Assembly: GCF_003244315.1 (NCBI RefSeq) | Contig: NZ_QKWH01000001.1 | Span: 372,001 to 436,000, forward strand | Reading direction: 5' to 3' | Length of the DNA stretch: 64,000 nt | Source: Xylanimonas oleitrophica | GTDB taxonomy: Bacteria; Actinomycetota; Actinomycetes; Actinomycetales; Cellulomonadaceae | In this document: in pieces, positions 4,218-54,506 of the stretch | Numbering within the stretch: the stretch's first letter is position 1 | How the letters are laid out: each line of letters begins with the position of its first letter | Made by a program: the position numbers and the translations under genes | Notes under the pieces: model-generated | Seen by the model: only the letters and a program-made list of their open reading frames with translations | Databases searched by the model: none | Told to the model about the DNA's origin: nothing

Positions 4218-4694
4218 CTACCCGCCGACGTCGGCGTAACGGTCCACGACCGCCACGTGGCCCGCCTCGACCGGGACGGCCAGCGGGACCCAGCCGCGCA
4301 GGCCGCTGGGCACGAACGGCAGCGGCACCTCCAGCCGTACCCGCACGCCCACGCTCGCGTCCGGGGTCAGGCACGGGTCCGCCGAGCACTCGAACGTCAG
4401 CACGCCCGGCTCGTGCGCCGCCCCGCGGTCGAAGCCCTGGTCCGCGAAGGCGATGGCCGTCGCCGTGTGGGCCCGGGCGAGCCCCTGACCGGTGCTCGAC
4501 GCCGTCACCATCGCGCGGGCAGCCTCCCGCGCGGCGCCCTCGGCCGCGAAGGCTCCTGCCTGCAACCGCCCGGCCACCAGCACGAGGTAGATCAGGGGGA
4601 TCAGGAGGAGCACCGCCGTGCCGATGAACTCGACCACGGCGCTGCCGCGCTCGCCGTCGCCCTGCTGCTGCGGTGGCTCGTCCTGCACGCTCAT
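4218..4694 (-). CDS. TadE/TadF-like pseudopilin
   Basis: A 158-residue protein with the class III prepilin layout: a short acidic N-terminus, the cleavage-type motif ERGSAVVEF (Glu at +5 after Gly) and then a ~20-residue hydrophobic helix (TAVLLLIPLIYLVLVAG). The rest is a soluble domain with a Cys pair (FECSADPC). TadE-family pseudopilins take part in assembly of Flp pili at the membrane. It is the last gene of the tad operon; its ATG overlaps the stop of the preceding tadE by ATGA, with GGAGGG immediately upstream, so translation is coupled. Assignment to TadE versus TadF is uncertain. Confidence 0.8.
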   Translation of the reverse strand: MSVQDEPPQQQGDGERGSAVVEFIGTAVLLLIPLIYLVLVAGRLQAGAFAAEGAAREAARAMVTASSTGQGLARAHTATAIAFADQGFDRGAAHEPGVLTFECSADPCLTPDASVGVRVRLEVPLPFVPSGLRGWVPLAVPVEAGHVAVVDRYADVGG

Positions 4695-5143
4695 CCCTCC
4701 TCCAGCGCGTGACCCTGGACGGTCATGGCCCCCGACGGCCCGAGGACGCCGACCACCGGGAACGGCGTCCGCACCGTCACCTCCACCACCGGCAGGCCGT
4801 CCACGTGGGTGCGGCCGACGGTCACGTCGCTCGCGTAGCGGGCCGACAACGACGTGCTGAGCAGCTCACGGGTCCGCGCGGCGCCGTCAGCCGCCGTGCG
4901 GTCTGCGCGTGCGGCGACACGCGCACCCTCGGCCGCGGCGTCGATCGCCAGCGCGCGGACGTGCTGCACGAACCCCACCTGGGCAACGGCGAGGAAGATC
5001 GCGACGACGAGGGCCGCGACCATGGCGAACTCGGCCACGGCCGACCCCCGCTCGTCGGCACCGCCATGACCCGGGTCGGGTTCTGAGCTGCTCGCACCCG
5101 CCGAGCCAGGGGCGCGGACGCCGCCACGCGGCACCGCCCTCAC
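4691..5143 (-). CDS. TadE-family pseudopilin
   Basis: About 150 residues when started at GTG 5143, which overlaps the preceding stop as GTGA; longer in-frame starts would run into the upstream gene. ERGSAVAEF is a class III prepilin-peptidase type site, followed by a hydrophobic helix (MVAALVVAIFLAVAQVGF) and a small polar domain. By family it is a minor pseudopilin of the Tad (Flp) secretion/pilus machine. It resembles the next gene in layout but not closely in sequence, so the pair look like an old duplication or the usual TadE/TadF couple. Confidence 0.8.
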   Translation of the reverse strand: MRAVPRGGVRAPGSAGASSSEPDPGHGGADERGSAVAEFAMVAALVVAIFLAVAQVGFVQHVRALAIDAAAEGARVAARADRTAADGAARTRELLSTSLSARYASDVTVGRTHVDGLPVVEVTVRTPFPVVGVLGPSGAMTVQGHALEEG

Positions 5144-5340
5144 CCCGTGACGCTCGAGATCGCCTGACGGAACGCGTCCTCCAGGAGAGGCCCGGCGATA
5201 GCCCACAGGGCGACGACGAGGCCCGCCGTCATGAGGGTGACGAGCACCCAGCCGGGCACGTCCCCGCGCTCAGGGTCGTGGACGGCGGGCAGCGCCGTGT
5301 CGTGCTCCGTCGAGGCGGGGGTGTCGCGAAGTTCGGTCAT
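5140..5340 (-). CDS. Flp-like small pilin candidate of the tad operon
   Basis: A 66-residue protein sitting exactly where actinobacterial tad loci carry their small pilin gene, between tadC and tadE. An acidic/polar N-terminus is followed by ERGDVPGW and one hydrophobic helix (VLVTLMTAGLVVALWAIAG). The canonical Glu at +5 of a class III prepilin is not obvious, so processing by a TadV/CpaA peptidase is uncertain. ATG 5340 is preferred over an ATG 24 nt upstream because AGGAAAGGA lies at good Shine-Dalgarno distance. The strong separate ribosome-binding site fits a major structural subunit. Confidence 0.7.
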   Translation of the reverse strand: MTELRDTPASTEHDTALPAVHDPERGDVPGWVLVTLMTAGLVVALWAIAGPLLEDAFRQAISSVTG

Positions 5341-5367
5341 GGGGGTTCCTTTCCTGGGCTGCATCGG

Positions 5368-6306
5368 TCACAGACCGATGCGGAGCGTGGCGAACGAGGG
5401 GAAGACGGCGAAGACGACGGTCACGGGGAGGATGAGGAAGACGACCGGGACGAGCATCGCGACCTCCTTCTTGCCACCCGCCTCCATGAGAGCGCGGCGC
5501 CCCGCCTCCCGGACGTCCTGCGCCTGTGCGCGCAGCACCTCCGCGAGCGGTGTGCCGCGCTCGAGGGCGACGGCGACCCCCTCCGCGAAGCGGGTCAGCG
5601 AGGGCAGGCCGGTGCGGTCGGCCATGTCGACCAGCGCCGTCGCGATGGGGGCACCGGCACGCACCGCCGCGAGCATGTGCCCGATCTCCACCGAGAGCTC
5701 GCCGCGCGCGGTCGTGGCGACCCGTTCCAGCGCCGACACCGGCGCCTCCCCAGCGGTCACGGCGAGGGCGAGGAGCTCGGCGACAGTCGGGAACTCCGCC
5801 GCCATGCGTTCCTCGCGCTGCGTGATCTGGCGGCTGAGCGCCTGGTCGCAGGCCACGAACCCGCACGCCCCGCTGATCACGACCAGCAGGAGCAGCGGCA
5901 GCACAGCGAACCCGCGCGTCGCCCCGATGAGGAGGGCGAGCGCGAGGCCGGCCGTGAGACCCGCGACCGTCCACACCACCTGGCGTGCACGGAACTGGTC
6001 GACGGTCTCCGACGACCCGGCCCGGTCCAGCCGCCGCCGCACCTCGGCCCGCGGCGAGCCCAGACGCTCGAACCAGTGGGCCACGTCCGCAGCCCACGGT
6101 GCCAAGAGCCGCTCCACCACGGGGAACGGTGAGCGGACAGGCATCTCGCGCAGCAGCCCGCTGGTCGAGTCCCGCGGTCGCAGGGCAGGGGCGAGCCGCT
6201 CCACCAACGTCATGCGGCGCGCCCGCACACCGACGACGACCAGCAGCACGCCCAGACCGCCCACCAGTCCCAGCAGCGCCCCGAGAGGCGAGAACCACTC
6301 GCTCAT
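5368..6306 (-). CDS. tadC: TadC-like type II/IV secretion inner-membrane protein
   Basis: A 312-residue T2SSF-family protein. There is an N-terminal membrane segment (LGALLGLVGGLGVLLVVVGV), a central hydrophobic pair (residues ~110-150), the cytoplasmic helical domain with EEFPTVAEL-like sequence (MAAEFPTVAELLALAV) and a C-terminal membrane helix (VPVVFLILPVTVVFAVFPSF). With TadB it forms the platform that couples the TadA ATPase to pilin assembly. Start ATG 6306 overlaps the tadB stop as ATGA. Confidence 0.85.
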   Translation of the reverse strand: MSEWFSPLGALLGLVGGLGVLLVVVGVRARRMTLVERLAPALRPRDSTSGLLREMPVRSPFPVVERLLAPWAADVAHWFERLGSPRAEVRRRLDRAGSSETVDQFRARQVVWTVAGLTAGLALALLIGATRGFAVLPLLLLVVISGACGFVACDQALSRQITQREERMAAEFPTVAELLALAVTAGEAPVSALERVATTARGELSVEIGHMLAAVRAGAPIATALVDMADRTGLPSLTRFAEGVAVALERGTPLAEVLRAQAQDVREAGRRALMEAGGKKEVAMLVPVVFLILPVTVVFAVFPSFATLRIGL

Positions 6307-49069: not shown

Positions 49070-49243
49070 CGACACGCCCCGTCAGGGGGAAGGGGAGGGC
49101 GGGCGGCCCGGCACGGTCGCCCCCCCTCTCCGCGCCCGGCCAGGTGTGCGGAGCTGGTGCCCGTGTCCCGGGGCGGCAGGAGCGGCGGGTCCGGCGCGCC
49201 CCGCGCCGTGCGGGGTGGCCCCCTCCGGGGGGACGATGCCTGC

Positions 49244-50857
49244 ATGACGCAGCGCGAGCAGGTCGGCAGCCAGAGCGGCGAGCAGGGCAGCGAGCAGTTC
49301 GAGGAGACGTACGACGTCGTGGTCGTCGGCGGCGGACCGGTGGGGGAGAACGCCGCCGACCGCGCCGGGCGCACCGGCCTGTCGGTCGCGCTGGTGGAGG
49401 GCGAGCTGGTGGGGGGCGAGTGCTCCTACTGGGCCTGCATGCCCTCCAAGGCGCTCCTGCGGCCCGGCGCGGCCCTGGCCGCCGCCGCGCAGGTCCCCGG
49501 CCTCCAGGGGACGCTCCAGGGCGTGCACGTGGACGCGGACGCGGTGCTCGCCTGGCGTGACCAGGTCACGAGCGACTGGGACGACACCGGCCAGGTGGGC
49601 TGGCTGGAGTCCGCCGGGATCACGCTGGTGCGCGGCCACGCCCGGCTCGCCGGAGAGCGGCTGGTGCGGGTCGAGGCTCCCGAGGTGGGCGCTCCCTCGC
49701 CTGACGGCGTGGTGGACGACGCCGCCACCAGGTCCGCCGACCGTGCCCGGACGCGGCTGCTGCGCGCCCGCCGGGCGGTCGTGGTCGCCACGGGCAGCGT
49801 GCCTGTCCTGCCGGACGTGCCGGGGCTGGCGGAGGCGGCCCCGTGGAGCAGCCGGGAGGCCACCGGGGCGGACCGCGCGCCCGCTTCGCTGGTGATCGTG
49901 GGTGGCGGCGTCGTGGCCACCGAGATGGCCACCGCCTACGCCGACCTGGGATCGCACGTGACGCTCCTGGCGCGCAGCGGGCTGCTCTCGGCCGCCGAGC
50001 CCTTCGCGGGGGAGCTCGTCGGCCAGGCGCTGCGGGACGCGGGGGTGGACGTGCGGCTGGGCGTGGAGGTGCGCCGCGTGGACCGGGCGGCGCCCGGAGA
50101 ACCCGTCACGGTGACGTTCGCCGCCCGGGAGGGCGAGCCCCGCGAGGAGCAGGTCGAGGCGGAGGAGATCCTGGTGGCCACGGGCCGGGTGGCCCGAACG
50201 TCCGACCTGGGCGTGGACGCCGTCGGGCTGGAGCCCGGCCAGCCGCTCGCCGTGGACGACACGATGGCCGTGCTCGACGTCGCGGCCGGGTCTGAGGGGC
50301 CGTGGCTGTTCGCGTGCGGTGACGTCACGGGCCGCACCCAGACCACGCACCAGGGCAAGTACCAGGGGCGGGTCGCCGGGGACGTGATCGCTGCCAGGTT
50401 CGGGGACGGCCGTGACGGCGTCCCGACGGCGGGCGAGACCCCGCCGGCGGCGGGGCACGAGGCGCGCCCCTGGTCCCGGTACGCGGCCACCGCCGACGCC
50501 GTGGCGGCGACCCAGGTGGTGTTCACCCGTCCGCAGGTCGCCTGGGTGGGCCCCACGGAGCGGACGGCTCGCGAGCAGGGCCTGCACGTCCGCGCGGTCT
50601 CCTACGAGCTGGGGGACGTCGCGGGCGCCACCGTCACCTCGCCCGGGTACGCCGGGCGAGCGCAGGTGCTCGTGGACGTCGAGCGCCGCATCGTGGTGGG
50701 TGCCACCTTCGTCGGGCCGGACGCGGGCGAGATGCTGCACGCGGCCACGGTCGCCGTCGTCGGGCAGGTGCCGCTGGAGCGGCTGTGGCACGCGGTGCCG
50801 GCCTACCCGACGGTCAGCGAGGTGTGGTTGCGGTTCCTGGAGTCGTACGGGCTGTAG
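49244..50857 (+). CDS. class I pyridine-nucleotide disulfide oxidoreductase
   Basis: A 537-residue FAD enzyme: VVVVGGGPVGENAADRAG, redox pair GGECSYWACMPSKALLRP (CX4C), second Rossmann LVIVGGGVVATEMATAYADL, FAD-binding LFACGDVTG, and C-terminal dimerisation domain ending HAVPAYPTVSEV. It resembles dihydrolipoamide dehydrogenase/mercuric reductase but CSYWAC differs from the usual CLNVGC, and no 2-oxo-acid dehydrogenase genes are near, so the substrate is open. ATG 49244 lacks a clear ribosome site. Confidence 0.85.
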   Translation: MTQREQVGSQSGEQGSEQFEETYDVVVVGGGPVGENAADRAGRTGLSVALVEGELVGGECSYWACMPSKALLRPGAALAAAAQVPGLQGTLQGVHVDADAVLAWRDQVTSDWDDTGQVGWLESAGITLVRGHARLAGERLVRVEAPEVGAPSPDGVVDDAATRSADRARTRLLRARRAVVVATGSVPVLPDVPGLAEAAPWSSREATGADRAPASLVIVGGGVVATEMATAYADLGSHVTLLARSGLLSAAEPFAGELVGQALRDAGVDVRLGVEVRRVDRAAPGEPVTVTFAAREGEPREEQVEAEEILVATGRVARTSDLGVDAVGLEPGQPLAVDDTMAVLDVAAGSEGPWLFACGDVTGRTQTTHQGKYQGRVAGDVIAARFGDGRDGVPTAGETPPAAGHEARPWSRYAATADAVAATQVVFTRPQVAWVGPTERTAREQGLHVRAVSYELGDVAGATVTSPGYAGRAQVLVDVERRIVVGATFVGPDAGEMLHAATVAVVGQVPLERLWHAVPAYPTVSEVWLRFLESYGL

Positions 50858-50878
50858 CCGGCGCCGACCGGCAGTGCG

Positions 50879-51910
50879 TCAGTCGGTGGCGAGCGAGCCG
50901 TCGGAGCTGAACACGAGCCCCAGCGTGATCTCGCCGCTGCGCAGCGCCGCCTTGGTGAGCGGACCGCCCGCGTCGAGCGAGCGGAAGTCGCTGAAGGTGA
51001 GCCCGTAGGTCTCCTCGAGCCCCGGCTGGCAGAACGGCCGCTCGGTGCACTCCGGACCGGCGCCCAGCACCAGCCCCTCGCAGGCATCGGCGAGGTCGGA
51101 GAGCGTCGTCAGGTCGTGCTCCTGGGCGAACGCCTGGGTGACGGCGAACGCGTTCTGGTCCTGCGCGGCCGACGGCGCGCCGAAGGTGAGCCCCACCTGC
51201 TGGCCGAGGGAGGTCAGGGCGTCCACGGTGGCGTCCAGGTCGCCGCTGGCCACGGGCTCGGCGTCGGCGCCGTTGACGTCCCTGTTGATGAACTCGGCCA
51301 GGGTGCCGACGTACTCGGGCACGACCTGCACCTGGTCGCCCGCCTCGAGCGCCGGCAGGTACGTCTCCCGGTTGCCGATGGTCACGACGTCGGCCTGGTA
51401 GCCCGCCTCGCGCAGCACGGCGGCGTAGATGTTGCCGAGCGTGGCGCTCTCGGCGAAGTCGGCGGCGCCGACCTGGACCGCGGCGCCCTGGGCGGGGCCG
51501 GTGACGCCCGGCGTGATGCCGGCCGAGGCCACCCACTCCGCGGCGACCTCCTGGGAGCTGCGCCGGTCGACGTCGACCGCCTTGTTGAGCGAGATCAGCG
51601 CGTCCGTGTCGAGAGCGGCCGAGACCTGGTCGAGCAGCGGCACGAGCCCGGGGTCGGCGGCCGCGGCCTCGGCGTTGACCGCCGGGATCACGTTGTCGAC
51701 CGTCTGGAGGTGCTGGTCGTCCTCGAGCACGACGAGCTGGTCGCCGGGCACGGGCTCGCACGTCGCCGTCACCGGAGCCTGGGCGCCGGTGCCGCCCGGG
51801 CTGGGGGAGGCGCCCTGGGAGGAGCCGGGAGCCCCGCAGGCACCGGCCAGCAGGAGGGCGGCCGCGGAGGCGGCGAGGGCGAGCGGACGGCGGGCAGGGT
51901 GGGCGTTCAT
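50879..51910 (-). CDS. OpuAC-type substrate-binding lipoprotein with apparently permuted domain
   Basis: A 343-residue lipoprotein (lipobox LLAGACG, Cys ~25) of the glycine-betaine/choline binder family. Residues ~57-132 (QLVVLEDDQHLQTVDNVIPA, LDQVSAALDTDALISLNKAV, EVAAEWVASAGI) match what is normally the C-terminal end of OpuAC domains. The usual beginning (VQVGAADFAESATLGNIYAA, GNRETYLPALEAG, VVPEYVGTLAEFI) starts only at ~143, and the protein stops at GLVFSSDGSLATD, exactly where the moved segment would continue. Last gene of the minus-strand permease-permease-SBP run. Confidence 0.88.
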   Translation of the reverse strand: MNAHPARRPLALAASAAALLLAGACGAPGSSQGASPSPGGTGAQAPVTATCEPVPGDQLVVLEDDQHLQTVDNVIPAVNAEAAAADPGLVPLLDQVSAALDTDALISLNKAVDVDRRSSQEVAAEWVASAGITPGVTGPAQGAAVQVGAADFAESATLGNIYAAVLREAGYQADVVTIGNRETYLPALEAGDQVQVVPEYVGTLAEFINRDVNGADAEPVASGDLDATVDALTSLGQQVGLTFGAPSAAQDQNAFAVTQAFAQEHDLTTLSDLADACEGLVLGAGPECTERPFCQPGLEETYGLTFSDFRSLDAGGPLTKAALRSGEITLGLVFSSDGSLATD

Positions 51911-52071
51911 CGTCGGCTCCTGGTCCGGGGCAGGGGTGCAGGCGCCGGAGGACCCGACGTCCTGCTCATTCGACCGCGAGCCACCGACAAGGGCAACATC
52001 CGCGCCCGGCGCGTGCGCAGGTCACGGCGTCGACGGGAGCGGTGCGGCCCGGCGCCGGCCCCACCCGGTGC

Positions 52072-52758
52072 CTAGCGGGCAGCGACCGCGTGGTCCGCCC
52101 GCAGCCGGGCTGGGGTGGCGAGCCGCTGGAGGACGGCGAGCGCACCGTCGACCACCAGGCACAGCGCCGCGACCAGCAGGCCGCCGGCCAGCACCTGGCC
52201 GTAGCGCTGGGTGCCCATGCCGAGGGCGACGACCTGCCCCAGGCCCCCTCCGCCGGCCAGCGCGGCGAGCGGGATGGTGGCGACCACCTGCACGACGGCG
52301 GTGCGCACGCCCGCGGCCAGCAGCGGCACGGCGAGCGGCAGCTCGACCTGGCACAGCACGCGCCAGCCCGGCATGCCCAGACCCCGGGCGGCGTCCCGGG
52401 CGGCGGGGTCGGCGCCCCGCACGCCCTCGTAGGCGCCCACCAGAAGCACGGGCACCGCGAAGACGGCGGCGGCCACCACCGTGGCGCCGTTGCCGAAGAG
52501 CCCGCCCGTGGCCAGCAGCAGGATGATCGCCAGCGTGGGCAGCGCGCGCGAGGTGTTGGAGAGCGCGACGACGACGCCGGAGCCGCGCCCGCTGTGGCCG
52601 AGCAGGGCGCCCAGCGGGAGGGCGAGCGCAGCAGCCAGCCCGGCGGCGAGCGCGGTCATGCCCAGGTGCTCGACCGTCAGGTCCAGCACGCCGCCCGGCC
52701 GCGTCCACACCAGCGGGTCGTTGAGGTAGCGAAGGGCCTCACCCAGCACGCCGTTCAT
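52072..52758 (-). CDS. osmoprotectant-type ABC transporter permease
   Basis: A 228-residue OpuBB/ProW-type permease with five to six helices. HLGMTALAAGLAAALALPLG and SNTSRALPTLAIILLL are typical; EAA-type loop RDAARGLGMPGWRVLCQVELPL; GGGGLGQVVALGM near the end. Forms the channel with the upstream permease. ATG 52758 overlaps the preceding stop by ATGA. A 161-base gap with no recognisable gene separates it from the binding protein. Confidence 0.9.
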   Translation of the reverse strand: MNGVLGEALRYLNDPLVWTRPGGVLDLTVEHLGMTALAAGLAAALALPLGALLGHSGRGSGVVVALSNTSRALPTLAIILLLATGGLFGNGATVVAAAVFAVPVLLVGAYEGVRGADPAARDAARGLGMPGWRVLCQVELPLAVPLLAAGVRTAVVQVVATIPLAALAGGGGLGQVVALGMGTQRYGQVLAGGLLVAALCLVVDGALAVLQRLATPARLRADHAVAAR

Positions 52759-53414
52759 GCCGGCCTCCGGCGCAGCCACGGCGTGGCAGCGCGCCCCGCC
52801 GCCCAGAGGGCGACGTCGAGCACGAGGGCCAGCAGCAGGGTGGCCAGGGTGGCGGCGGTGATCTCGGCCCGGAAGAAGTTGTTGCGGAACCCCTCGAACA
52901 TCAGCTGCCCGAGGCCGCCGTAGCCGACCACGACGCCCACGGTGACGAGGGCGACCGTGGACACGGTGGCCAGGCGCAGCCCGGCGACGACGGCGGGGAG
53001 CGCCGCGGGCAGGCGCACCAGCCACGTGAGCTGCCACGGGCCGTAGCCGAGGCCGCGCGCCGCCTCGAGGGCGGCCGGGTCCACCGACTGCAGCCCGGCC
53101 AGCGTCTGGCGCAGGATCACCAGCACCGCGTAGACCACCAGGCCCACCAGCACCGGGGTGCGGCCGATGCCCAGCACGGGGGCGAGGATGGCGAACAGGG
53201 CCAGCGACGGCACGGTGTACAGCACGGAGGCCAGCGCGACCAGCGCGCCGGCCACGCGGCGTCGGCGGACCACGAGCAGGGCGAGCGGCACGGCGACCAG
53301 CGCGGCGAGGGCGACCGCCTCGACGGTCAGGAGCAGGTGCTGCCAGGCGCGGGTGCCGAGCACCTCGCGGTGGGTCACCACCCACTCCCAGGAGAACCAC
53401 GGGTTGCCGGGCAT
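52755..53414 (-). CDS. osmoprotectant-type ABC transporter permease
   Basis: A 219-residue OpuBB/ProW-type permease: HLLLTVEAVALAALVAVPLA, ALASVLYTVPSLALFAILAP, EAA loop LEAARGLGYGPWQLTWLVRL and VGYGGLGQLMFEGF. First gene of the minus-strand unit; ATG 53414 lies 7 nt after TAGGTT, a leaderless-type promoter facing away from an identical element serving the ATPase gene. Confidence 0.9.
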   Translation of the reverse strand: MPGNPWFSWEWVVTHREVLGTRAWQHLLLTVEAVALAALVAVPLALLVVRRRRVAGALVALASVLYTVPSLALFAILAPVLGIGRTPVLVGLVVYAVLVILRQTLAGLQSVDPAALEAARGLGYGPWQLTWLVRLPAALPAVVAGLRLATVSTVALVTVGVVVGYGGLGQLMFEGFRNNFFRAEITAATLATLLLALVLDVALWAAGRAATPWLRRRPA

Positions 53415-53421
53415 GCGCTCG

Positions 53422-53443
53422 AACCTACCCGGTCACGTAGGTT
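53422..53443. promoter_or_regulatory. back-to-back divergent promoters (inverted -10 elements)
   Basis: AACCTAC-N8-GTAGGTT is a perfect inverted repeat formed by two TAGGTT -10 hexamers, one per strand, each 7 nt from its start codon (53414 minus, 53451 plus). The polymerase footprints must overlap completely in this 36-bp gap. Confidence 0.65.
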
Positions 53444-53450
53444 GGGGGGC

Positions 53451-54506
53451 GTGTCCGCACGCATCGAGCTCGACGCCGTCAGCAAGGCATACCCGGACGG
53501 GACGGTCGCGGTGGGCTCCCTGAGCCTCGTGGTCGAGCCCGGCGAGGTGCTCGCCCTGGTGGGGCCGTCGGGCTGCGGCAAGTCGACCACGCTGCGGATG
53601 ATCAACCGGCTCGTCGAGCCGACGGGCGGCCGGGTGCTGATCGACGGTGTCGACACCTCCACCATCGACCCGGTCCGGCTGCGCCGCCGCACGGGGTACG
53701 TCATCCAGGACGTCGGCCTGCTCCCGCACCGCACGGTCGCCGCGAACGTCGCCACGGTGCCCCGCCTGCTGGGCTGGGACCGGCGCCGCACGCGCGAGCG
53801 GGTCGGTGAGGTGCTGGAGCTGGTGGGCCTGCCCGCCGCCACCTACGGGCGCCGGTACCCGCACGAGCTGTCCGGGGGAGAGCGCCAGCGGGTGGGCGTG
53901 GCCCGCGCGCTGGCCACCGACCCGCCGGTGCTGCTGCTGGACGAGCCGTTCGGTGCCGTGGACCCGGAGCTGCGCCGGTACCTGCAGGCCGAGCTGGCGC
54001 AGATCCTGGCCGACGTCGGCTCCACCGTGGTGCTGGTCACCCACGACATCGACGAGGCCGTGCGCCTGGGACGGCGCGTGGCCGTCCTGTCGCGCGGCGG
54101 TCACCTGGAGCAGGTGGCACCGCCCCTGGCCGTGCTGGCGCACCCCGCCACCGAGCGGGTGCGGGAGTTCGTGGGGGAGGGGGCCGCGCTCCGGGTCCTC
54201 CAGCTCGCCCGCGTCGCGCCGGAGGACCTGGGACGCGATCCGGGTCACCTCGCGCTCGACGGCGCTCCGCGGGTGCCGCTGGGCGCGACGCTCGCCGACG
54301 CGTTCGACGCGCTGGCCGCACTGCCTGCGGGCGCCGGCGCGCCGGCGCGCGTCGCGGTGACGGACACGGCGGGCACCGTCGTCGGCGTCCTCACGGCCGA
54401 CGGCGTCCTGGCCGCCCTGCGCCGGGCGACAGACGGCGCGGCACCCCGCGCCGACGTGCCGCCCGCAGCGGCGGGCGGGGCCCGGATGGGCACGGGGACC
54501 GCCTGA
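53451..54506 (+). CDS. osmoprotectant-type ABC transporter ATPase
   Basis: A 351-residue ATPase of the OpuBA/ProV type: Walker A GPSGCGKSTTLRM, Q-loop VIQDVGLLPH, signature LSGGERQR, Walker B LLLLDEPFGAVD, H-loop VTHDIDEA. The C-terminal ~110 residues resemble a degenerate CBS region (VAVTDTAGTVVGVLTADGVL), the part that senses ionic strength in related systems. Divergent from the permeases and binding protein it should energise. Confidence 0.9.
   Translation: MSARIELDAVSKAYPDGTVAVGSLSLVVEPGEVLALVGPSGCGKSTTLRMINRLVEPTGGRVLIDGVDTSTIDPVRLRRRTGYVIQDVGLLPHRTVAANVATVPRLLGWDRRRTRERVGEVLELVGLPAATYGRRYPHELSGGERQRVGVARALATDPPVLLLDEPFGAVDPELRRYLQAELAQILADVGSTVVLVTHDIDEAVRLGRRVAVLSRGGHLEQVAPPLAVLAHPATERVREFVGEGAALRVLQLARVAPEDLGRDPGHLALDGAPRVPLGATLADAFDALAALPAGAGAPARVAVTDTAGTVVGVLTADGVLAALRRATDGAAPRADVPPAAAGGARMGTGTA

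Follow-up and report, generated by a model that had tools for sequence, protein, structure and literature searches.

Circular permutation in a PF04069-family binding lipoprotein, and rotated segment orders among its relatives in the Actinomycetota

The window, by which is meant the whole stretch of 64,000 nucleotides that was analysed, encodes a lipoprotein whose domain order is rotated relative to its canonical relatives, and the evidence supports its reading as a natural circular permutant of the PF04069 family. The canonical chain is described here as three segments in the order N-T-C, and in the window protein the order is C-N-T. It is very likely, in our judgement, that this is the binding lipoprotein of an OpuB/OsmF-like ABC importer in which the chain was permuted from N-T-C to C-N-T, the fold and most of the pocket were kept and a clamp between Cys51 and Cys277 was probably acquired. 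Natural circular permutations are usually ancient and are seen as single structure pairs. Here the canonical order and several rotated orders are found together in one transporter family, mostly with common neighbour genes and pockets, and the protein identity to the nearest canonical relatives is 48-60% in the case of the window protein, rising to 76-83% in the youngest permutant. The gene, its parts and its neighbours are located in the window as follows.

50879..51910, minus strand: lipoprotein gene encoding the permuted OpuAC/ProX-type substrate-binding protein of 343 aa, an intact ORF.
51836..51910, minus strand: signal peptide as far as the lipobox Cys25 (LAGAC), read from the sequence.
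51758..51760, minus strand: Cys51, a C-N-T-specific cysteine 8 residues ahead of the LVVL strand, from ORF comparison.
51515..51742, minus strand: segment C, residues 57-132; by alignments it supplies the final strand of lobe II, then the second hinge strand and the C-terminal portion of lobe I.
51482..51514, minus strand: new linker, residues 133-143, from the old C-terminus to the old N-terminus.
51083..51481, minus strand: segment N, residues 144-276, the putative lobe I core, first hinge strand and start of lobe II (Pfam, ORF segments, AF2 model).
51080..51082, minus strand: Cys277 at the N-T junction, the proposed partner of Cys51, from ORF comparison.
50891..51079, minus strand: segment T, residues 278-340, the putative remainder of lobe II including the ancestral Cys288/Cys294 (Pfam, ORF segments).
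52072..52758, minus strand: ABC permease (PF00528), the presumed partner (Pfam; start judged by eye).
52755..53414, minus strand: second ABC permease (PF00528; Pfam).
53451..54506, plus strand: ABC ATPase (PF00005), divergent from the permeases (Pfam; start judged by eye).

Segment C is C-terminal in the canonical relatives, and across the C-N-T proteins the gap between the C model and the N model is 8-11 residues. The binding-protein gene is downstream of the two permease genes and is encoded beside permeases and an ATPase, as in ABC importers. The gap at 53414-53451, between the permease-permease-binding protein operon and the divergent ATPase gene, is very short; neither a promoter nor a terminator was detected when 50700-53700 was scanned. 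The convergent neighbour at 49157-50857 resembles, by eye, an FAD/NAD-linked disulfide reductase.

Pfam recognised a single family in the protein, PF04069, in two stretches (144.6 bits, E 5.6e-42, cut-off 21.2). The best stretch aligns residues 144-340 with positions 2-183 of the 257 in the profile, and in a six-frame search of the genome profile positions 187-256 matched ahead of these residues (E 3.4e-12), within one and the same open frame, so that the profile is not matched in order from end to end, positions 2-183 coming after 187-256. Likewise, when PDB sequences were searched with phmmer, query 143-314 aligned with chain 6-172 of Archaeoglobus fulgidus ProX (1SW1), and query 54-132 with chain 196-273. 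The original prediction had located segment C at 51515-51742, which corresponds to residues 132-57, and had placed this C-terminal segment before the N-terminal part (here residues 144-340); the coordinates are correct, and Pfam, the six-frame search and phmmer agree on the order. It had also described the protein as ending at SSDGSLATD, which is the case, and a second copy of the segment was looked for and is absent. The NCBIfam OsmF profile matches the canonical relative L155 in one stretch and the window protein in two, and the OsmF equivalog NF049931 scored 84.4 bits, below its curated cut-off of 400 bits. The relatives among the PDB sequences include the engineered sensors iNicSnFR and iAChSnFR, and the natural cut sites may therefore help sensor design.

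The homologue survey that had been proposed with the original prediction found the same order in every close relative fetched. A contig scan of the named genomes, which finds close relatives only, produced 26 loci from Promicromonosporaceae, Cellulomonadaceae or nearby, and all 26 are C-N-T. For the wider samples a profile was made from the window protein and 11 of these 26 homologues, and chain order was inferred from the span of the match. Matches spanning C-N-T were found in at least 57 of 396 genomes in the order sample (that of G030 is truncated at a contig end), at least 17 of 394 in the class sample (three of these are also in the order sample) and at least two of 296 in the phylum sample, counts in which C-N-T proteins are favoured by the permuted order of the query profiles; very divergent permuted proteins may lie outside the matches listed. 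In the order sample the lowest C-N-T score before the drop is 290 bits (G067); canonical spans set in at 225 bits, and among the matches listed some genomes of the window's own family are without a C-N-T match. The fetched loci contained 155 segment-bearing ORFs which, with duplicates counted, comprise 81 C-N-T, 58 N-T-C, 15 T-C-N and one C-N. The distinct sequences number 73 C-N-T, 51 N-T-C and 10 T-C-N, and with the later loci included 73, 80 and 12, respectively. A lipobox-like motif was found in all 73 distinct permuted ORFs with a loose pattern of our own making.

Misassembled tandem copies could imitate a permutation, and some of the sampled genomes are fragmentary, so displacement of the gene end by an assembly or frameshift artefact was considered. 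However, in each of the 73 distinct sequences the frame is open and single, a lipobox is present and the two new cysteines are invariant, and the carriers include single-contig genomes (e.g. G283 and G220); an artefact of this kind is hardly conceivable.

A search of plasmids returned 299 records, each with less than 60% identity, one of which covers 80% of the query. The binding protein on the Mycobacterium ulcerans plasmid NZ_CP083743.1 matches query 59-277 in one piece, and may thus be permuted too.

An AF2 model was built from 53 permuted sequences, namely the window protein and 52 of 72 candidates (56 of the 72 were kept at a 92% identity limit, from which L007, L014, L060 and the truncated L064 were removed by hand). 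It forms one compact domain with a pLDDT of 94.3 and a pTM of 0.89. In VIA-align, model residues 1-230 superpose on OpuAC 2b4l (Z 16.6, rmsd 4.5, 196 aligned) and residues 98-297 on AfProX 3mam (Z 14.3, rmsd 2.1, 190 aligned), and the model together with these matches shows a two-lobed overall fold of the Cluster F type. Collinearity with 2B4L does not extend over the full model, the aligned part being residues 1-230 only, and among the 50 chains listed of Foldseek's top 1000 no solved chain matches the C-N-T model at full length. This split superposition is what is expected of a permutant between OpuAC and ProX, and it is evidence against an N-terminal domain that folds separately.

Such a domain would be present if residues 57-132 came from another OpuAC-family gene and were fused to a truncated binding protein, an event that likewise puts a C-terminal-like segment first, and with which the order alone is compatible. 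The original prediction had named a separate domain as one of the results that would speak against it. The AF2 model, however, is a single compact unit in which confidence stays high throughout residues 57-132, and the OpuAC superposition takes in the C and N segments together. In addition, the C and N-T segments indicate the same canonical group (see below), and no canonical C segment follows T in the C-N-T ORFs scanned. A fusion is accordingly considered very unlikely, and the natural circular permutation that had been predicted is borne out by the profile order, by 73 permuted and 80 canonical distinct relatives and by the confident single-domain model.

The position of the cut was read from an alignment with EgtUC, for which the sections available of the published description give D1 as 233-331 and 445-506, D2 as 341-432 and the second linker as 433-444 (PMC9732360). 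By profile alignment (chain positions +229), the window chain would open between EgtUC residues 425 and 429, inside D2. As this is before the second linker, both hinge strands should survive. A reading in which the cut removes one hinge crossing was dropped, given that the cut falls inside D2 by the EgtUC limits. The original prediction had the hinge-crossing C-terminal lobe moving to the lipid-anchored end; the C-terminal segment has been relocated, but it is not the whole lobe, and by alignment the cut is in a lobe II loop with both hinge crossings apparently retained. The N-terminus and the lipid anchor would then belong to lobe II after the permutation.

A pair of cysteines accompanies the C-N-T order. 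All 73 distinct C-N-T proteins have a cysteine within 12 residues ahead of segment C and another at the N-T junction, an equivalent of neither Cys51 nor Cys277 is present in any of the 80 N-T-C proteins, and none of the 12 T-C-N proteins has both, one of them carrying an unrelated cysteine at the first position. Past the lipobox cysteine there are exactly four cysteines in 71 of the 73 C-N-T proteins, and exactly two in 64 of the 78 N-T-C proteins having a recognised lipobox. In L062 the ancestral Cys288/Cys294 is lost and the new pair is kept. In the DSSP assignment, residues 5 and 233 of the model, which adjoin Cys51 and Cys277, are one-residue bridges, as are 205 and 224; as support for a Cys51-Cys277 disulfide the bridges in the model are only suggestive. 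Such a disulfide probably fastens the strand at the new N-terminus to lobe II and so substitutes for the chain connection that was lost. The 73 C-N-T sequences are probably one event followed by long retention, and with a single ancestry the cysteines and the permutation may represent one evolutionary coincidence that was later retained.

It might also be that the permutation is real but neutral and that the cysteine pair serves otherwise, for example in protecting the leader from proteolysis, with no hold on lobe II. Most pocket positions and the gene order are indeed unchanged by chain order, and the T-C-N relatives manage without the new pair. Both cysteines are nevertheless kept in 73 of 73 proteins, including L062 which is without the older pair, and one of them is next to the new N-terminus, the other within lobe II. 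A purely neutral permutation of this kind seems rather unlikely to us, and the disulfide clamp is retained in the proposal given below.

The canonical relatives indicate where segment C came from. Across 80 of them the segment C score follows the N+T score (Spearman rho 0.75). The best canonical match of the window C segment is L156 (48% identity) and that of the window N-T part is L155 (60%), which belong to one canonical group; for C, L105 and L075 from other groups are nearly as good. On this comparison of segments, C is a piece that moved within its own gene lineage. Over 4.5 kb, the gene order permease-permease-binding protein is present at 30 of the 33 C-N-T loci and at 18 of the 22 N-T-C loci, the C-N-T exceptions being L005, L062 and L158. 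The divergent C-N-T protein L062 (ORF 4586-5737) has no recognised permease or ATPase gene within its 10.5 kb locus. Divergent placement of the ATPase gene across a very short gap is common to most C-N-T loci and most canonical sisters, and in six of 10 T-C-N loci the ATPase, the permeases and the binding protein are all on the same strand.

Most pocket positions are alike across the three orders. Tyr200 is found in all three. Asn253 is present in 72/73 C-N-T, 47/51 N-T-C and 10/10 T-C-N proteins, and Arg291 in 73/73, 49/51 and 6/10, respectively. Phe334 is variable (55/73, 29/51 and 10/10). In the part of the EgtU description available, the cage is formed by F293, Y341, Y419 and Y443, which align with Tyr200, Asn253, Phe334 and Asp72, and the window protein does not reproduce this aromatic cage. 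With Y341 and Y443 replaced by Asn253 and Asp72, a classical betaine ligand appears doubtful.

T-C-N proteins, a second rotated order, were found in at least 10 of 296 genomes of the phylum sample, and family f36 contributed a further two (together L139-L148, L204 and L205). A T-C-N model (pLDDT 88.6) superposes on Bacillus subtilis OpuAC 2b4m over 245 of 264 residues (Z 18.5, rmsd 4.2), and a T-C-N profile searched against PDB sequences, with E up to 1, found ProX-type proteins and not OpuAC. Since the order is OpuAC-like but the sequence matches are of the ProX type, we read T-C-N as having reached the arrangement of OpuAC independently. Genomes G779, G803, G994, G916, G926 and G808 have a T-C-N protein plus a canonical-span match on another contig, and the second copies of G779 and G803 are N-T-C at ORF level (L193 and L194).

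The number of origins was examined in trees built from the joined segments: a 99-row tree (132 rows thinned at 85% identity, the window protein absent and the truncated L148 and L149, order CN, omitted), and trees of 54 and 50 hand-picked rows with the window protein included. A topology uniting all permuted proteins was rejected (p-AU 1.0e-7, 54 hand-picked rows), as was one uniting all T-C-N proteins (p-AU 2.4e-6). By the AU test, T-C-N therefore arose at least twice, apart from C-N-T. For the f60/f101 T-C-N rows a single clade is not rejected by the AU test (0.639, 0.1 and 0.134), but starred branches in the 54-row tree split these rows, and T-C-N may thus have arisen three times. One C-N-T clade is likewise not rejected (p 0.762, 0.237 and 0.261). 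The C-N-T protein L158, which has a long branch, groups with the canonical L102 or L102/L106 in three trees (support 85 in the 99-row tree; 96/83, starred, in the 54-row tree; 88/95 in the 50-row tree), and C-N-T forms one clade in at most 1% of the bootstrap trees for the 54- and 50-row trees. Both new cysteines are present in L158 and, like its long branch, count for a single C-N-T origin, whereas its grouping and the bootstrap values count against, so there was perhaps a second.

A further order, T2-C-N-T1, was observed in a paralogue (L149, which is the same gene as L209, and L210). At least two of the 35 genomes in this family carry it, and the remaining 18 fetched loci are canonical. Its pieces share 83% and 76% protein identity with canonical L211, and the DNA flanking the gene on either side runs collinear with that of canonical genomes (e.g. 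L216). The permutation seems to have happened in place and comparatively recently, and its cut, in our reading of the alignments, is also in lobe II.

We think it likely that the PF04069 binders of the Actinomycetota are a permutation hot spot, with at least four events (C-N-T once, perhaps twice; T-C-N at least twice; T2-C-N-T1 in the paralogue) at three cut sites, all in lobe II. With all cuts in lobe II by alignment, each would transfer the lipid anchor out of lobe I and onto lobe II; the anchor would thus have changed lobe repeatedly, once with a new disulfide in place of the lost chain connection. The spread of the permutations, the preference for cuts in lobe II, the role of the anchor-bearing lobe in permease docking and the compensation of a cut chain by a disulfide are thereby opened to experiment.

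For the window protein the following architecture is proposed, in which we infer the lobe limits (via the EgtUC alignment), the disulfide, the lobe II tethering, transport and the tandem origin. The old ends in lobe I would be joined via the short linker, and the chain opened at a lobe II loop immediately ahead of the last lobe II strand, with retention of the two-lobed fold, of the two hinge strands and of the greater part of the ligand pocket. The protein is accordingly predicted still to close around its ligand and to hand it over to the permeases encoded alongside. The N-terminal strand of lobe II would bear the lipid tether and be held to lobe II by the Cys51-Cys277 disulfide. The original prediction had suggested that the permutation could alter how the binder is tethered; we likewise infer an altered tethering. 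It had also suggested a tandem duplication followed by end loss, which is plausible as the route to C-N-T, and a non-systematic hunt for a four-segment ORF, the tandem intermediate, found none among the 155 segment-bearing ORFs or the later loci.

Permuted binding proteins are already known, and the kind of event described here is therefore a known one. In the literature searched, largely without subscription papers, no report was found of the C-N-T cut, of the cysteine pair or of repetition in one family, which is weak evidence, and a word search of PMC2861598 found no mention of permutation in the text covered. The window protein resembles A. fulgidus ProX, OpuBC/OpuCC, OsmF/YehZ and EgtUC in that both pieces are clearly homologous and several pocket residues are common, but these proteins start with N-T, and C then follows in the aligned ProX and EgtUC. 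M. tuberculosis ProX is described, in the portion of the paper available, as without aromatic residues for trimethylammonium (PMC5894108), and the window protein, as far as that portion allows comparison, is similar in being without a full aromatic cage. The glycine betaine binder OpuAC of B. subtilis (PDB 2B4L) is reported, in the part of the CPSARST paper available, to have a circular-permutation relation to other betaine binders (PMC2395249). Lobe I of the window model matches that of OpuAC, but OpuAC is T-C-N and the window protein C-N-T, with a different cut. TpMglB-2 of Treponema pallidum is, like the window protein, a permuted, lipid-anchored binding protein; the available sections of its description present it as naturally permuted, remark that its homologues are mostly tethered and consider adaptation as one possible explanation (PMC4990184). 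On the same sections it differs in belonging to fold cluster B, in having another cut and an added fourth hinge crossing, and in its poor (13%) match in the permuted part.
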